A stretch of 64,000 nucleotides of DNA from Mesorhizobium helmanticense. Its GTDB lineage: Bacteria; Pseudomonadota; Alphaproteobacteria; Rhizobiales; Rhizobiaceae. Positions 3,527 through 62,005 of the stretch are shown here, in pieces. Each line of letters begins with the position of its first letter. The stretch's first letter is position 1. The notes below the pieces were generated by a model that was not told the origin of the DNA, made no database searches, and saw nothing but the letters and a program-made list of their open reading frames with translations. The position numbers and the translations under genes are program-made. Location: contig NZ_PZJX01000047.1 of NCBI RefSeq assembly GCF_003034915.1, positions 62,001-126,000 on the forward strand, given 5' to 3'.

Positions 3527-3611
3527 GCCCAGATGGCGGAATTGGTAGACGCGCACGGTTCAGGTCCGTGTGCCGCAAGGCGTGGAGGTTCGAGTCCTCT
3601 TCTGGGCACCA
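3527..3611 (+). tRNA. tRNA-Leu (anticodon CAG)
   Basis: The sequence folds as a class II tRNA of 85 bases including an encoded CCA. The acceptor arms GCCCAGA and TCTGGGC pair perfectly, the anticodon stem ACGG/CCGT encloses a loop with CAG at 3561-3563, there is a variable arm, and the T-arm GAGGTTCGAGTCCTC is canonical. CAG reads CUG leucine codons. Leucine tRNAs are frequent integration sites, and the composition changes immediately downstream, but I found no second copy of the tRNA 3' end in the next 12 kb. Confidence 0.97.
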
Positions 3612-3619
3612 TCTTTCAG

Positions 3620-3649
3620 CAGCTAAGGTGCAGAATTGCGCCTTAGCTG
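3620..3649 (+). terminator. hairpin just after tRNA-Leu
   Basis: CAGCTAAGG and CCTTAGCTG form a perfect 9-bp stem, extendable by a wobble and two GC pairs around a 6-base loop. It starts 9 bases after the tRNA. There is no T-run, so it may aid 3' processing or Rho-dependent termination instead of intrinsic termination. Confidence 0.45.
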
Positions 3650-3759
3650 GCGGTGAGACTACCCCGCTACATGCACTTCTACCTGAGTTAGGCATCGCCT
3701 GCCGCACGATCACAAGGGATGCAGATGTCGCGGGCCGGTCAACTTCACATCGATAGGCG

Positions 3760-4686
3760 TTAATCGTCAGCAGCCATCGGGTTGACCCTTGCCAGCCTCA
3801 TAGCCTCAGCAATTTCATGCACAGGGACAGGCGACAACTTGTCCTCCGCCTTCGCATGAGACCATCGATGACAAGTTGGGCACAGCACGGCCAGATCGTC
3901 CAATCGGGTCTCTCGGGGACCGATGGAAAGGGGGTTACGATGATGGGCATCAAACATCATGCTAAGCGAATCCGAGTAGCCGCACGCCTCGCAGATGATA
4001 ACGCCACCATTTCTCGCGCGGTTCGCTGCCTTGGTCGCTCGAGCTAGGGCGGCGTCCCGTTCCATGTCCCTCTGAAGTTTCCACACTCTCTTGCCTTCGC
4101 TGGAGGTGCTGTCCAAGCGTGGGTACATCGAGCCAAACATCTGCACGCGACCCGGATCTCGGAAGCCAGATGGAAGCTGTATCTCCCATCGCCTCTCAAT
4201 CTCCCGGTCCTTTAGGACCTCCCATAGCAGACGGATCTGGGCATCATCTCGCTTAACGCGGTCGAAGGCATTGGTAAGAATACGATGATCTGGCTGGCCG
4301 AGATCTTGGACAAGACGAGGCTCGCTCACAACTGAGTATACTTCGGAGATGATTACCGCCACTGGCCATTGGGCAAGACGGGCCTTCAACTCGTCATCGC
4401 GCACAAACGCGGTGGTCTCGCCGTAGACACCAGTTGATCTGACGAGTTCCAATACGCGGCCCCGCAGGTCGTCAGGGACTTGATCGCCTCCCCCGATTGT
4501 AAGGAAATACGGCTGATCAACCGACCGTTCCGCTGTAGTTCGGGCGAGAGAGAAGTGAGCCCTGTCTTTAAGTGCTACGTTGCCATGGGAGCCAAAGCAC
4601 ATAACCGGCTCGCTTGAGCGACCCCATACAGCTTTTACGCCCATCAATACATCGGGCGTGGGAGCAACCTCTATGAATTTTACCAC
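3760..4686 (-). CDS. HNH endonuclease-like protein
   Basis: Predicted nuclease of about 308 residues. The C-terminal third carries a zinc-type HNH domain: CEAC near 232-235, the AHH catalytic pair near 247-249, then CPTCH near 269-273 and a last His four residues on. This spacing is typical of McrA-like and phage/restriction HNH nucleases. The N-terminal 200 residues match no family I recognise; a sensor or DNA-modification reader role is only a guess. A GTG at 4686 is preferred as start because GGGAGGA lies 9 bases upstream; a TTG at 4704 would put the ribosome site inside the gene. It points toward tRNA-Leu and is divergent from the RES toxin-antitoxin operon. The codons are less GC-biased than those of core neighbours, suggesting acquisition. 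Confidence 0.75.
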   Translation of the reverse strand: MVKFIEVAPTPDVLMGVKAVWGRSSEPVMCFGSHGNVALKDRAHFSLARTTAERSVDQPYFLTIGGGDQVPDDLRGRVLELVRSTGVYGETTAFVRDDELKARLAQWPVAVIISEVYSVVSEPRLVQDLGQPDHRILTNAFDRVKRDDAQIRLLWEVLKDREIERRWEIQLPSGFRDPGRVQMFGSMYPRLDSTSSEGKRVWKLQRDMERDAALARATKAANRARNGGVIICEACGYSDSLSMMFDAHHRNPLSIGPRETRLDDLAVLCPTCHRWSHAKAEDKLSPVPVHEIAEAMRLARVNPMAADD

Positions 4687-4829
4687 TGCCAACGTTCCTC
4701 CCAATCAGTCCCGCTCGTTGTGGCGATGGCATAACATGATTGGCAGGAGCTTCAGAACAGGGCTGAGTAGTTCGCCCTCGACGCACTGCGTAGCCAAGCA
4801 CGATAAGTTCGCAACAAAGGGATGTCCCC

Positions 4830-4883
4830 TTGACTGTTCCGTATCAGTTTCATATATTTAAACTCTGAAACCGATACGGAACA
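4830..4883 (+). promoter_or_regulatory. Promoter with built-in 18-bp inverted-repeat operator
   Basis: TTGACT at 4830-4835 and TATATT at 4853-4858 are separated by 17 bases, a near-ideal sigma70 promoter. An inverted repeat is laid over it: left arm TGTTCCGTATCAGTTTCA (4835-4852) fills the spacer, and right arm TGAAACCGATACGGAACA (4866-4883) starts at the expected +1. The arms match at 17 of 18 positions, with a 13-base centre holding the -10. A dimeric repressor bound here would block RNA polymerase. The first gene starts 8 bases after the right arm. Autorepression by the downstream Xre-type antitoxin is the obvious inference. Confidence 0.8.
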
Positions 4884-4890
4884 AGCGTCC

Positions 4891-6249
4891 ATGAGCGCCG
4901 ACATCGTTCACTTTCCGCAGAAGTCACCGCCGGTGGAGCCGCTCGCGCAGTTTGTCCGGCTTGGGGAGGTGTCGCACAAGCGAACGGCAAGCCTTTTCGC
5001 GGAAGGGCACCTTGCCGCGAAAAGGGTTGTCATTGACGCATCCCGCCTACGGTTTCTGAGGAGTGAGATTAAGCAGTTCAAGGAAGCCGGCAGAGAGATC
5101 GTGCTCGACACCAAAGCCGCCGAATTGGCAGCGCTCAGCAAGTATGGTGGGAGCGCGAAAGATGCGCCATGGTCGCAAGTTGCCGGGGGCCAATTGGTGA
5201 CCGCGCCTTGCTTTCTACGTGGCCATCCCGGCGACATCTTTGGCCAGATTGCTCGTTGTGCCGTTGAATATGATGTCGATGCTGTATTGTCCCCCGGCCA
5301 CTTCCTTCACCCAGAGAATGGGCTCGATTGGCTGGACATTGATCGCGGCTCTTGTTCTGAATTGCGCCGAGCGCTTGACCATGAAGGTGGCAAACATATT
5401 GCGATAGATTACTTATTGATCCTACCGCATCTCATGCTGAATGATCCTGAGATGCGGCTGAAGATCATGCAGGCACTATCTGATTTGCCTTTCGATAATC
5501 TGTGGATTCGTGCTTCTGGCTTTGGCAATGATTCTGCCGCTCAGCCTCTGGTGGCCTTTATTTCTTCACTTGTCCAATTTCACAACCTCGGAAAGCCCAT
5601 CATTACCGACTACCTCGGTGGTCTCGTTGGCGAGGCGGTGATGGCACTCGGCGCATCGTCCGGCTTCGCTCATGGTATCGCGGAATGCGAGCGTTTTGAT
5701 GCTCGCCCATGGGACAAGCCTGCCAAGAAGCGCGACCCGGATAAACCGGGCGGGCGGGCAGCGAGAATAAATCTGTCGTTGATCAATAAGTCTCTGACGC
5801 TGAATGAGTACGAAACATTGCTGTCTGCTAAGAGCGCAAAGCGTCTCTTGTCTCCAAGTGTTGCCTTGCCGGGCGTTCGAACGCCAAGCGACGTCACCAA
5901 TGATCCTAAGATACTCGCCTCCAAAGAGGCTGTGACCAATTTCGAAGCTTTGGCAAACGTGCCGAATTTGCACAGGCCAAAGGATTTCGTTGAGCGACGA
6001 GTCGAGCCGGCCGTTGAGCGTATGCAACAAATCAAGAACTTAATACCCAATCCGGAGATTGCGAAAGCCAAAGTTGTGGATGTGGACAAACTAATGAAAC
6101 GGATGGGGGATCATCATAAGCAATTGAGTCGCCAATCTAATTCTCTGACGGAATTGTCTGAGCGTCTGGTCGATCTCGGTCCTGTAGCGCGCCCGGTACA
6201 GCGGCTATCGCGGCTTGAAGAAAATGAAAGACGTGGGCAGAGGCCATGA
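4891..6249 (+). CDS. Uncharacterised TIM-barrel-like protein, first gene of RES-Xre operon
   Basis: A 452-residue protein that I do not recognise. Residues about 45-265 alternate hydrophobic strands and helices (VVIDAS near 46, EIVLD near 69, VDAVLSP near 129, HIAID near 169, NLWIRA near 203, KPIIT near 235, a glycine-rich GASSGFAHGI near 254), a pattern that suggests a TIM-barrel enzyme; this is inference from spacing only. Acidic residues end several strands (D49, D73, D173, D240), as in barrel active sites. Residues 340-450 are charged and helical, perhaps coiled coil near 400-430. There is no signal peptide or membrane segment. It is the first gene after the operator promoter and overlaps the antitoxin gene by 4 bases (ATGA), so the two are translationally coupled. 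Its base composition is well below that of core neighbours. Confidence 0.85.
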   Translation: MSADIVHFPQKSPPVEPLAQFVRLGEVSHKRTASLFAEGHLAAKRVVIDASRLRFLRSEIKQFKEAGREIVLDTKAAELAALSKYGGSAKDAPWSQVAGGQLVTAPCFLRGHPGDIFGQIARCAVEYDVDAVLSPGHFLHPENGLDWLDIDRGSCSELRRALDHEGGKHIAIDYLLILPHLMLNDPEMRLKIMQALSDLPFDNLWIRASGFGNDSAAQPLVAFISSLVQFHNLGKPIITDYLGGLVGEAVMALGASSGFAHGIAECERFDARPWDKPAKKRDPDKPGGRAARINLSLINKSLTLNEYETLLSAKSAKRLLSPSVALPGVRTPSDVTNDPKILASKEAVTNFEALANVPNLHRPKDFVERRVEPAVERMQQIKNLIPNPEIAKAKVVDVDKLMKRMGDHHKQLSRQSNSLTELSERLVDLGPVARPVQRLSRLEENERRGQRP

Positions 6250-6596
6250 GTAACTCAACTGCCAATTCTATCGCACGTAGCTTGGAGGAAATCGAGCAGG
6301 CTGGAGGCTTGCGAGGAACGGACATCGCTAACTTGACGCAAGTATCGAAGGCGACCGTTTCCCGCTGGCGTACTGGCCTAGCCAGACCTCAGCCGCGTAA
6401 TGAGATGGTGCTCTCTGACCTTGTTTACGTCGTGCGGCGGTTGCAGGATTACTATACTGAGGAAGAAATCCGTACTTGGCTGTACTCGCGACACCCTCAG
6501 CTAGGGGATGAGCGTGCGGTTGATCTCATCCATAGTGGCCGTACCATTGACGTGTTAAATGTATTGAATCGACTCGATTCTGACGGATATCTCTGA
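6246..6596 (+). CDS. Xre/MbcA/ParS-family antitoxin (DUF2384)
   Basis: A 116-residue protein with the two-part layout of RES-system antitoxins. A helix-turn-helix lies at about residues 24-44 (TDIANLTQVSKATVSRWRTG), and the C-terminal toxin-binding DUF2384 domain is at about 66-116 (YYTEEEIRTWL, then HPQLGDERAVDLIHSGRT). In this family the antitoxin dimer binds operator DNA through the helix-turn-helix and blocks the toxin's NAD site with its C-terminal tail. The start codon overlaps the upstream stop (ATGA), and the toxin gene starts 2 bases after its own stop. It is the likely repressor of the inverted-repeat promoter at 4830-4883. Confidence 0.85.
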   Translation: MSNSTANSIARSLEEIEQAGGLRGTDIANLTQVSKATVSRWRTGLARPQPRNEMVLSDLVYVVRRLQDYYTEEEIRTWLYSRHPQLGDERAVDLIHSGRTIDVLNVLNRLDSDGYL

Positions 6597-6598
6597 CC

Positions 6599-7174
6599 TT
6601 GAACCGGTTCCCTCCGCGCGACAGTCGACTAATCGACGCGATGGAAGAATTACCTGTTACACCGTATCAGGGGCACGTTTGGCGCGTCGTTCGCGAGGGA
6701 CGTGATCCCTGCCAAGGTTCCTCCGCTGGAAATCGCTGGGACACCGGACAATTCGAAGTTCTCTACACATCCCTGGAGCGCAGGGGTGCGATTGCCGAGA
6801 TGTACTTTCACCTCAAAGCAGGGCAACCAGTTTTCCCATCCAAGCTACGCTACACGCTCCATGAAATTGAGGTCTCTCTCAACGGAATTTACGACCTCTC
6901 TGATCGTCATTTATTGGCACGTCTTGGTGTCGATATCGCAAACTTTGGACGTCTAGACTACCTTTACCGGAAGGCTGAATATCCAACTTGTCAGCAGGTC
7001 GGCGAAGCCGCTCACTTTCTAGGGTCAATGGAGGCGAACGATCCGTCCGGCATTCTTGTCCCAAATGCCCGCTACGCTTGCAGTAACCTTGTCATATTTT
7101 GTCAGCACACCGTGCCCGACCAGATCGAGCCTGTCAAAGACCACGGATTGGTGGATTGGGCGGAGCTGAGATAG
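6599..7174 (+). CDS. RES-domain toxin (NAD+-consuming)
   Basis: A 191-residue RES-domain protein; characterised members degrade or transfer ADP-ribose from NAD+ and stop growth. Family landmarks are visible: VWRVVR with Arg29, GNRW with Arg46, VLYTS with Tyr56, and AIAEMYFHL with Glu67. The late conserved motif, usually Pro-Ser-x-Arg, reads PNAR here (Asn156), so the serine that gives the family its final letter is replaced; another Ser sits at 162. The TTG at 6599 follows the antitoxin stop by 2 bases; an ATG at 6641 is an alternative that keeps all motifs. Third gene of the operon from 4891. Confidence 0.85.
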   Translation: MNRFPPRDSRLIDAMEELPVTPYQGHVWRVVREGRDPCQGSSAGNRWDTGQFEVLYTSLERRGAIAEMYFHLKAGQPVFPSKLRYTLHEIEVSLNGIYDLSDRHLLARLGVDIANFGRLDYLYRKAEYPTCQQVGEAAHFLGSMEANDPSGILVPNARYACSNLVIFCQHTVPDQIEPVKDHGLVDWAELR

Positions 7175-7221
7175 TTTTAGGGTCGGGCAGCATACAGTCC
7201 AACCTGGCCTGCGCGGTCGCG

Positions 7222-58612: not shown

Positions 58613-58754
58613 CCTTCTCCCCTTGTGGGAGAAGGTGTCGCCGAAGGCGACGGATGAGGGGTGTTCCAGCTCGGCACGGACGGCGATCCGTCCAACACCC
58701 CTCATCCGTCTCGGCGCTGCGCGCCGATCCACCTTCTCCCACAAGGGGAGAAGG
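58613..58754. repeat. RIME-like palindromic intergenic repeat (copy 6)
   Basis: A 142-base copy in the same orientation as 53342, inside the bkd operon between E2 and E3. As RNA it would form a stable double hairpin and may set the E3 level relative to E1/E2. Confidence 0.85.
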
Positions 58755-61989: not shown

Positions 61990-62005
61990 TACTAACATGT
62001 TAGTA
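61990..62005. promoter_or_regulatory. Perfect 16-bp palindrome, likely GntR operator
   Basis: TACTAACATGTTAGTA is a perfect palindrome 41 bases before the DapA-family gene. TATGAT at 62004-62009 overlaps its end and fits a -10. A GntR-family regulator gene lies two genes downstream and is the obvious candidate ligand. Confidence 0.7.

Follow-up and report, generated by a model that had tools for sequence, protein, structure and literature searches.

A 49-bp inverted repeat across the promoter of a three-gene Xre-RES operon: a probable autoregulatory operator that goes with xre

Introduction

A long inverted repeat lies across a predicted promoter of Mesorhizobium helmanticense, directly in front of three genes read in the same direction. 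Two questions are raised by this locus: which product of the operon would bind such a repeat, and whether its close fit to the promoter is essential. We approached both in a stretch of 64,000 nucleotides of contig NZ_PZJX01000047.1 (the window; positions 62,001 to 126,000) and by comparison with related loci from other chromosomes and plasmids.

The dyad and the promoter

The features of the intergenic region are as follows (window coordinates).

4830..4835, + strand: -35 hexamer TTGACT, from the promoter scan
4835..4852, no strand: left arm of the putative operator, TGTTCCGTATCAGTTTCA, from the repeat search
4837..4840, + strand: outer TTnC element of the left arm, from the position profile, 11 bp from the inner element
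4847..4852, + strand: inner half-site GTTTCA (core RTTTCA), from the comparison of related loci
4853..4858, + strand: -10 hexamer TATATT, from the promoter scan, spacer 17 nt
4866..4871, + strand: inner half-site TGAAAC (core TGAAAY), from the comparison of related loci
4866..4883, no strand: right arm of the putative operator, TGAAACCGATACGGAACA, from the repeat search
4878..4881, - strand: outer TTnC element of the right arm (GGAA on the + strand), from the position profile, 9 nt before the start codon of the first gene

The repeat search returned two arms of 18 nt separated by a 13-nt gap, 94% complementary and paired at 17 of 18 positions, the sole mismatch being A4846 against C4872. Repeats of this quality (at least 17/18, loop 0–60 nt) did not occur when the 64-kb window was simulated 20 times with a first-order Markov model (1.28 Mb), or in 2000 simulated 300-bp regions, and a chance origin of the dyad was rejected. 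The original prediction had described an inverted repeat over 49 bases with a 17/18 arm match far beyond chance, and the search and simulations bear this out. Elsewhere in the real window such a repeat occurs only once, at 58647, where a long hairpin is picked up in three registers; this hairpin-forming repeat (58647–58712) resembles an extragenic palindromic element.

The promoter TTGACT-17-TATATT scored 10/12 in the promoter scan, in which promoter matches by themselves were at shuffle level (two observed, against a mean of 1.9). The left arm takes up the entire 17-base spacer and, before it, the final base of the -35 hexamer, and the right arm begins at the predicted +1 (4866, the eighth base past the -10), both as first described. 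The claim that the -10 forms the centre holds in part: the hexamer lies inside the gap, of which it occupies the left six of 13 bases, but the dyad axis, at 4859, falls one base beyond it.

Genes of the operon

The dyad heads an operon of three genes, here called X, xre and res.

4891..6249, + strand: gene X, 452 aa, first gene, predicted tRNA-guanine-transglycosylase-like fold
6246..6596, + strand: xre, predicted antitoxin, 116 aa, HTH plus Xre/MbcA/ParS C-terminal domain, its start overlapping the stop of X
6599..7174, + strand: res, predicted RES-domain toxin, 191 aa, TTG start, PF08808

The RES protein matched PF08808 with 68.9 bits (cut-off 23.2) and NF049844 weakly (20.3 bits; cut-off 110). 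For the antitoxin, PF09722 gave 24.0 bits, narrowly under its cut-off of 24.5, and NF049845 gave an E-value of 8e-8, yet below its cut-off. The nearest relative of known structure was Mycobacterium tuberculosis MbcA (PDB 6fkg; E 5.7e-8, residues 16–109), which by sequence match alone belongs to the same antitoxin family. From these matches we classify the operon as an Xre-RES type II toxin-antitoxin system, Xre being assigned on the combined evidence with scores under the curated cut-offs. The RES-Xre pair has been a predicted toxin-antitoxin system since 2009 (PMC2701414), and a RES-Xre pair is also on record from Legionella (PMC12457610). The source genome carries five other RES loci, whose xre genes were not reliably located and whose upstream regions stood outside the comparison.

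Sampling of related loci

At the levels of family, class and phylum, relatives of X were found in 12/394, 3/385 and 2/398 genomes, each count including the window's own genome; they also occurred in 14 plasmid records and 12 loci of named genomes. An initial scan of genome contigs using only X as the query gave no relatives, and viral contigs contained no relatives of X. Twelve of the 14 plasmid records were fetched, H3 and H13 being left out as near-copies of H2 and H12. In every one of the 34 distinct X-bearing loci fetched, xre and res stand next to X in the same orientation; these include L038, where res is split in two pieces, and L012 and L039, where X is truncated. A search with Xre added seven xre-res loci lacking X, on two Pannonibacter plasmids and in five other genomes, with Xre proteins at 50–66% identity. 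Further Xre matches without X were left unused (L064, a contig-end fragment, and L065–L072, weak), and L080–L082 were fetched for the gene scan only and stood outside later analysis.

The set for operator scoring comprised 38 loci, 31 with three genes (the window included) and seven with two. Left out were L026, L028 and L032 (same contigs as L002, L003 and L005), L008 (same contig as L019), L035 (operator identical to that of L021), and L012 and L039 for their truncated X.

Conservation of the core

The core RTTTCA-N13/14-TGAAAY was scored in the 200 nt that precede the first gene. It reached at least 11 of 12 positions in 34 of the 38 loci: 27 scored 12/12 and seven scored 11. In 1900 shuffled upstream regions, a score of 10 was reached in 6%, 11 in 0.5% and 12 in none. 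L009 scored only 10/12, a value that 6% of shuffles reach, and three remote members (L011, L024 and L038) scored 8–9 and have no core; the truncated L012 likewise yielded none. A total of 379 gene fronts was scored in these loci; 23 reached at least 11, and all 23 were the operator itself: 20 stand before X (duplicate loci included) and three belong to opposite-strand ORFs over the same site. In the remote members L011 and L012, a common AAAATGTCAAG sequence occurs upstream of X in place of the core, and in L024, from the actinobacterium Gordonia, direct repeats of TGTGTTCA are present upstream (3873–3982) instead of a dyad.

The loci without X bear on the binder. The core was present in all seven two-gene xre-res loci at a score of 11 or 12, and a stricter pattern matched five of the seven. 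In L073, from Pannonibacter, the promoter-operator region and the first codons of X align with L013 positions 3909–4025, and the next stretch aligns with L013 5266–5381, from the end of X into xre; by this alignment X has been excised internally, with the operator and xre retained. In L039, X lacks its middle and the strict core pattern does not match, but a similar dyad can be recognised by eye, GACGTTTACATTACA-N14-TGAAACGAAAACGTC, with TATAAT in the gap. In the Xre tree, where several other forks are weakly supported, the X-less loci are scattered: L073 and L074 lie within a three-gene clade, and L075 lies beside the three-gene locus L005.

These loci speak against a need for the 452-residue protein. 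X might bind the operator alone or as an obligatory co-repressor, as its place as the first gene behind the operator and its association with xre-res in the 34 loci fetched would allow, and TGT-fold proteins bind nucleic acid. However, the core is retained where X is absent or internally deleted, and an HTH match was obtained for Xre and not for X. We consider operator binding by X quite improbable, and X as the required owner of the operator is ruled out by the X-less loci; it could be a modulator of the Xre-RES complex. Because the core persists in these loci, the site goes with Xre, and probably with the Xre-RES complex. By sequence comparison, an operator-like inverted repeat thus overlaps the operon promoter and is conserved with xre. 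These natural gene deletions assign the operator to the toxin-antitoxin pair, and the operator can now be defined for an entire branch of Xre-RES operons.

That a repeat of this kind is bound by some regulator of the host with no tie to the operon is a general possibility, in favour of which nothing further was found. Against it, the motif accompanies xre-res in several genera, on chromosomes as well as plasmids, and the exact 12-base core occurs at just two other places in the 6.88-Mb genome, without a promoter or mirrored outer arms (by eye), which makes this explanation highly improbable. The two further cores were treated as chance occurrences and not as operator sites.

Symmetry and elements of the arms

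The symmetry analysis used 35 operators grouped into 25 clusters, with L011, L024 and L038 excluded for lack of a core and L009 anchored by hand. Mirror matches were compared with permutations in which right halves were redistributed among loci of equal gap length. At positions 1–12 outside the hexamer, 184 of 300 comparisons matched, against a permuted mean of 152, and none of 2000 permutations was as high. At positions 13–20, the match was 52 of 200 against 47, a value reached in 379 of 2000 permutations. Symmetry extending to position 12 indicates that the arms differ between lineages and change together within a locus, and gives a functional arm of 18 nt, in accord with the arm length of the original prediction.

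Such covariation is also expected of a hairpin stem, and the arms could in principle control expression as an RNA hairpin or a DNA cruciform. The predicted start site at the right arm, however, would leave the left arm untranscribed, and in loci where the dyad surrounds the -35 the predicted start sites would leave neither arm transcribed. When the halves were folded onto each other, two conserved blocks appeared, TTnC at -10 to -7 and TTTCA at 1–5, so that TTnC recurs one helical turn (11 bp) apart in each arm and four elements are present in total. Two such blocks, spaced with an 11-bp period and separated by less constrained positions, resemble protein contacts and not a stem. The RNA hairpin was rejected on the position of the predicted start site, and we give the hairpin or cruciform explanation very little credence.

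The arm centres are 31 bp apart, which by arithmetic is about three helical turns and would place both arms on one face of the helix. Four TTnC elements together with this distance are compatible with two Xre dimers. Against this fit, the elements within an arm form direct repeats instead of inverted ones, and the centres of the inner pair lie 19 bp from each other.

Position of the promoter relative to the dyad

Phase was taken as the position of TTGA relative to the core in the 35 distinct loci with a core; it was read by eye and not from the TTGA scan in L007, L009, L022 and L023, and some loci contain more than one TTGA. In 17 loci, including L009, the dyad surrounds the -10, with TTGA at -17 or -16. 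Four others have a dyad shifted by 6 nt (TTGA at -11), with the -10 abutting the right hexamer. In 11 loci TTGA lies inside the gap, which puts the -35 within the dyad and makes the right arm take up the spacer. The remaining three, L007, L022 and L023, resemble this last type with a weaker -35.

From these alignments, the dyad is the fixed part, and its fit to the spacer, -10 and +1 in the window is one of several solutions. The exact fit, from which very tight autorepression had first been predicted, is not supported as essential, since the promoter slides relative to the dyad among the relatives. A promoter hexamer seems always to lie in or against the gap, so occupancy of the dyad should exclude polymerase. 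It appears that a repressor-DNA unit can stay constant while promoter elements move through it.

The sequence GGAAC (4878–4882) stands at a Shine-Dalgarno position before X. The right outer element, GGAA, lies 7–9 nt before the start codon here and in several other loci of the -10 type, whereas most loci of the -35 type have an AGGAG of their own (both by eye). The right outer element may thus double as a ribosome-binding site.

Proposed binder and mechanism

Taking these comparisons together, we put the probability at roughly 80% that the dyad of 49 bp serves an Xre-RES operon with an extra first gene X as its autoregulatory operator and is bound by Xre, most likely in the toxin-bound complex. 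The original prediction of an operator-like element, with an operon product as the likely binder and autorepression by steric block as the natural reading, is supported by the locus comparison. Binding by Xre-RES, repression through this binding and a 4:2 stoichiometry are what we infer from the operator and from relatives studied elsewhere.

In the proposed mechanism, Xre, most likely as a toxin-bound complex with two DNA-binding Xre dimers, would occupy both arms and contact each at the inner RTTTCA and the outer TTnC element. The bound complex would cover the -35/-10 region and the start site and so exclude RNA polymerase. Loss of Xre subunits from the complex would lead to its release, and X, xre and res would then be transcribed.

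A correlation between the presumed recognition helix of Xre and the core was noted by eye. G as the first core base goes with Lys as the first residue of the helix in 15 of 15 clusters, in both halves; A goes with Thr or Pro in all 10 left halves and in 7 of the 10 right ones. The correlation may reflect few events, since the operators share ancestry.

Known Xre-RES systems provide the precedent. In Pseudomonas putida KT2440, an imperfect inverted repeat (S4) lies inside the region needed for xre-res promoter activity; the 4:2 Xre-RES complex represses, the 2:2 form does not do likewise, and the second Xre dimer is thought to contact DNA nearby (PMC12204516). The window is alike in having an inverted repeat within the promoter region of an Xre-RES operon, and by this precedent the same would be expected here, but with each dimer on its own arm. 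In P. putida, binding is primarily at S4, with a second site placed by inference some 20 bp upstream and the dimers modelled about 20 bp apart (PMC12204516); the window, unlike P. putida, has two mirror arms with centres 31 bp apart, with two elements each, enclosing a promoter hexamer. The available part of that paper mentions no gene X in the P. putida operon. The four elements would suit the two Xre dimers of a 4:2 complex, in agreement with the two-dimer repressor complex originally suggested, its stoichiometry following the P. putida precedent (PMC12204516).

The NatR-NatT system of P. aeruginosa is likewise a RES-Xre pair, whose 4:2 hexamer binds and represses its own promoter whereas the smaller complex does not bind (PMC11535050). 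The main text of that paper contains neither "palindrom-" nor "operator" nor "inverted repeat", and no gene X is seen in the available part. The element of the window, putatively an autoregulatory operator of a toxin-antitoxin system, is of an ordinary kind and represents a clearly delimited variant for which we found no description.

Gene X

X has no match in Pfam, the TGT (tRNA-guanine transglycosylase) model included, or in NCBIfam at E-values up to 1, and its one PADLOC match is at chance level (E 0.074). AlphaFold2 models were obtained for the X proteins of the window (pLDDT 75.5) and of L034 (pLDDT 80.6). The predicted model of window X superposed on 1iq8 with a VIA Z of 20.5 (rmsd 3.6 over 299 residues) and that of L034 X on 4h6e with a VIA Z of 20.5 (rmsd 3.5 over 296 residues). 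In Foldseek, window X matched TGT with an E-value of 1.5e-7, with a query-length TM-score of just 0.42–0.48 among the matches listed. Against viral models, L034 X had eight matches at E up to 0.001, one of them named putative queuine tRNA-ribosyltransferase. These models predict a TGT fold for X. Identity to TGT is about 10%, and neither the sequence search of solved structures nor hhalign against the genome's own Tgt as a single sequence (probability 0.3) supported the relationship.

D73 of X is invariant and stands at a strand end, positioned by strand order like the residue that we take to be the general-base Asp of TGT; the position of what is presumably the TGT nucleophile seems, also by strand order, to be held by H261, which is invariant only among the closer relatives and not in the wider set. 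Of 20 aligned relatives, 14 retain a zinc-type C..CC..H cluster, whereas the window copy and five others have lost it. In some loci, as described above, the gene is missing or truncated.

An elaboration, which we regard as speculative and rather doubtful, would make the operon a toxin-antitoxin module of three components. A symmetric Xre-RES hexamer would straddle the dyad, its two-fold axis between the arms, with a promoter hexamer trapped between two Xre dimers. X would act as a TGT-fold sensor or extra neutraliser, apparently lacking the normal nucleophile, that responds for example to base modification in tRNA or in the DNA of an infecting phage and tunes the complex, and that can be lost where it is not required. 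A predicted TGT-fold protein associated with an NAD-depleting toxin family is a surprising third gene. We found no description of a TGT-like gene tied to Xre-RES among the matches listed from the open-licence literature, and the words "three-gene" and "transglycosylase" are absent from the main text of the 2009 study (PMC2701414). One listed paper, a phage survey, contains "transglycosylase", "RES domain" and "Xre" together.

Genomic setting

The operon lies in a stretch of low G + C content (3527–7200) that directly follows tRNA-Leu(CAG), with 52–56% G + C against 64–67% upstream and 56–59% downstream. Low G + C content and the position after the tRNA gene suggest that the stretch was acquired, and it is probably an acquired island. 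A search for a repeat of the tRNA 3' end marking the end of the island found none of at least 15 nt. The same stretch contains an HNH endonuclease gene at 3760–4704 on the minus strand. On a Celeribacter plasmid (L016, 6232–8963), qatA and qatB of the Qat anti-phage system are located directly after X-xre-res.
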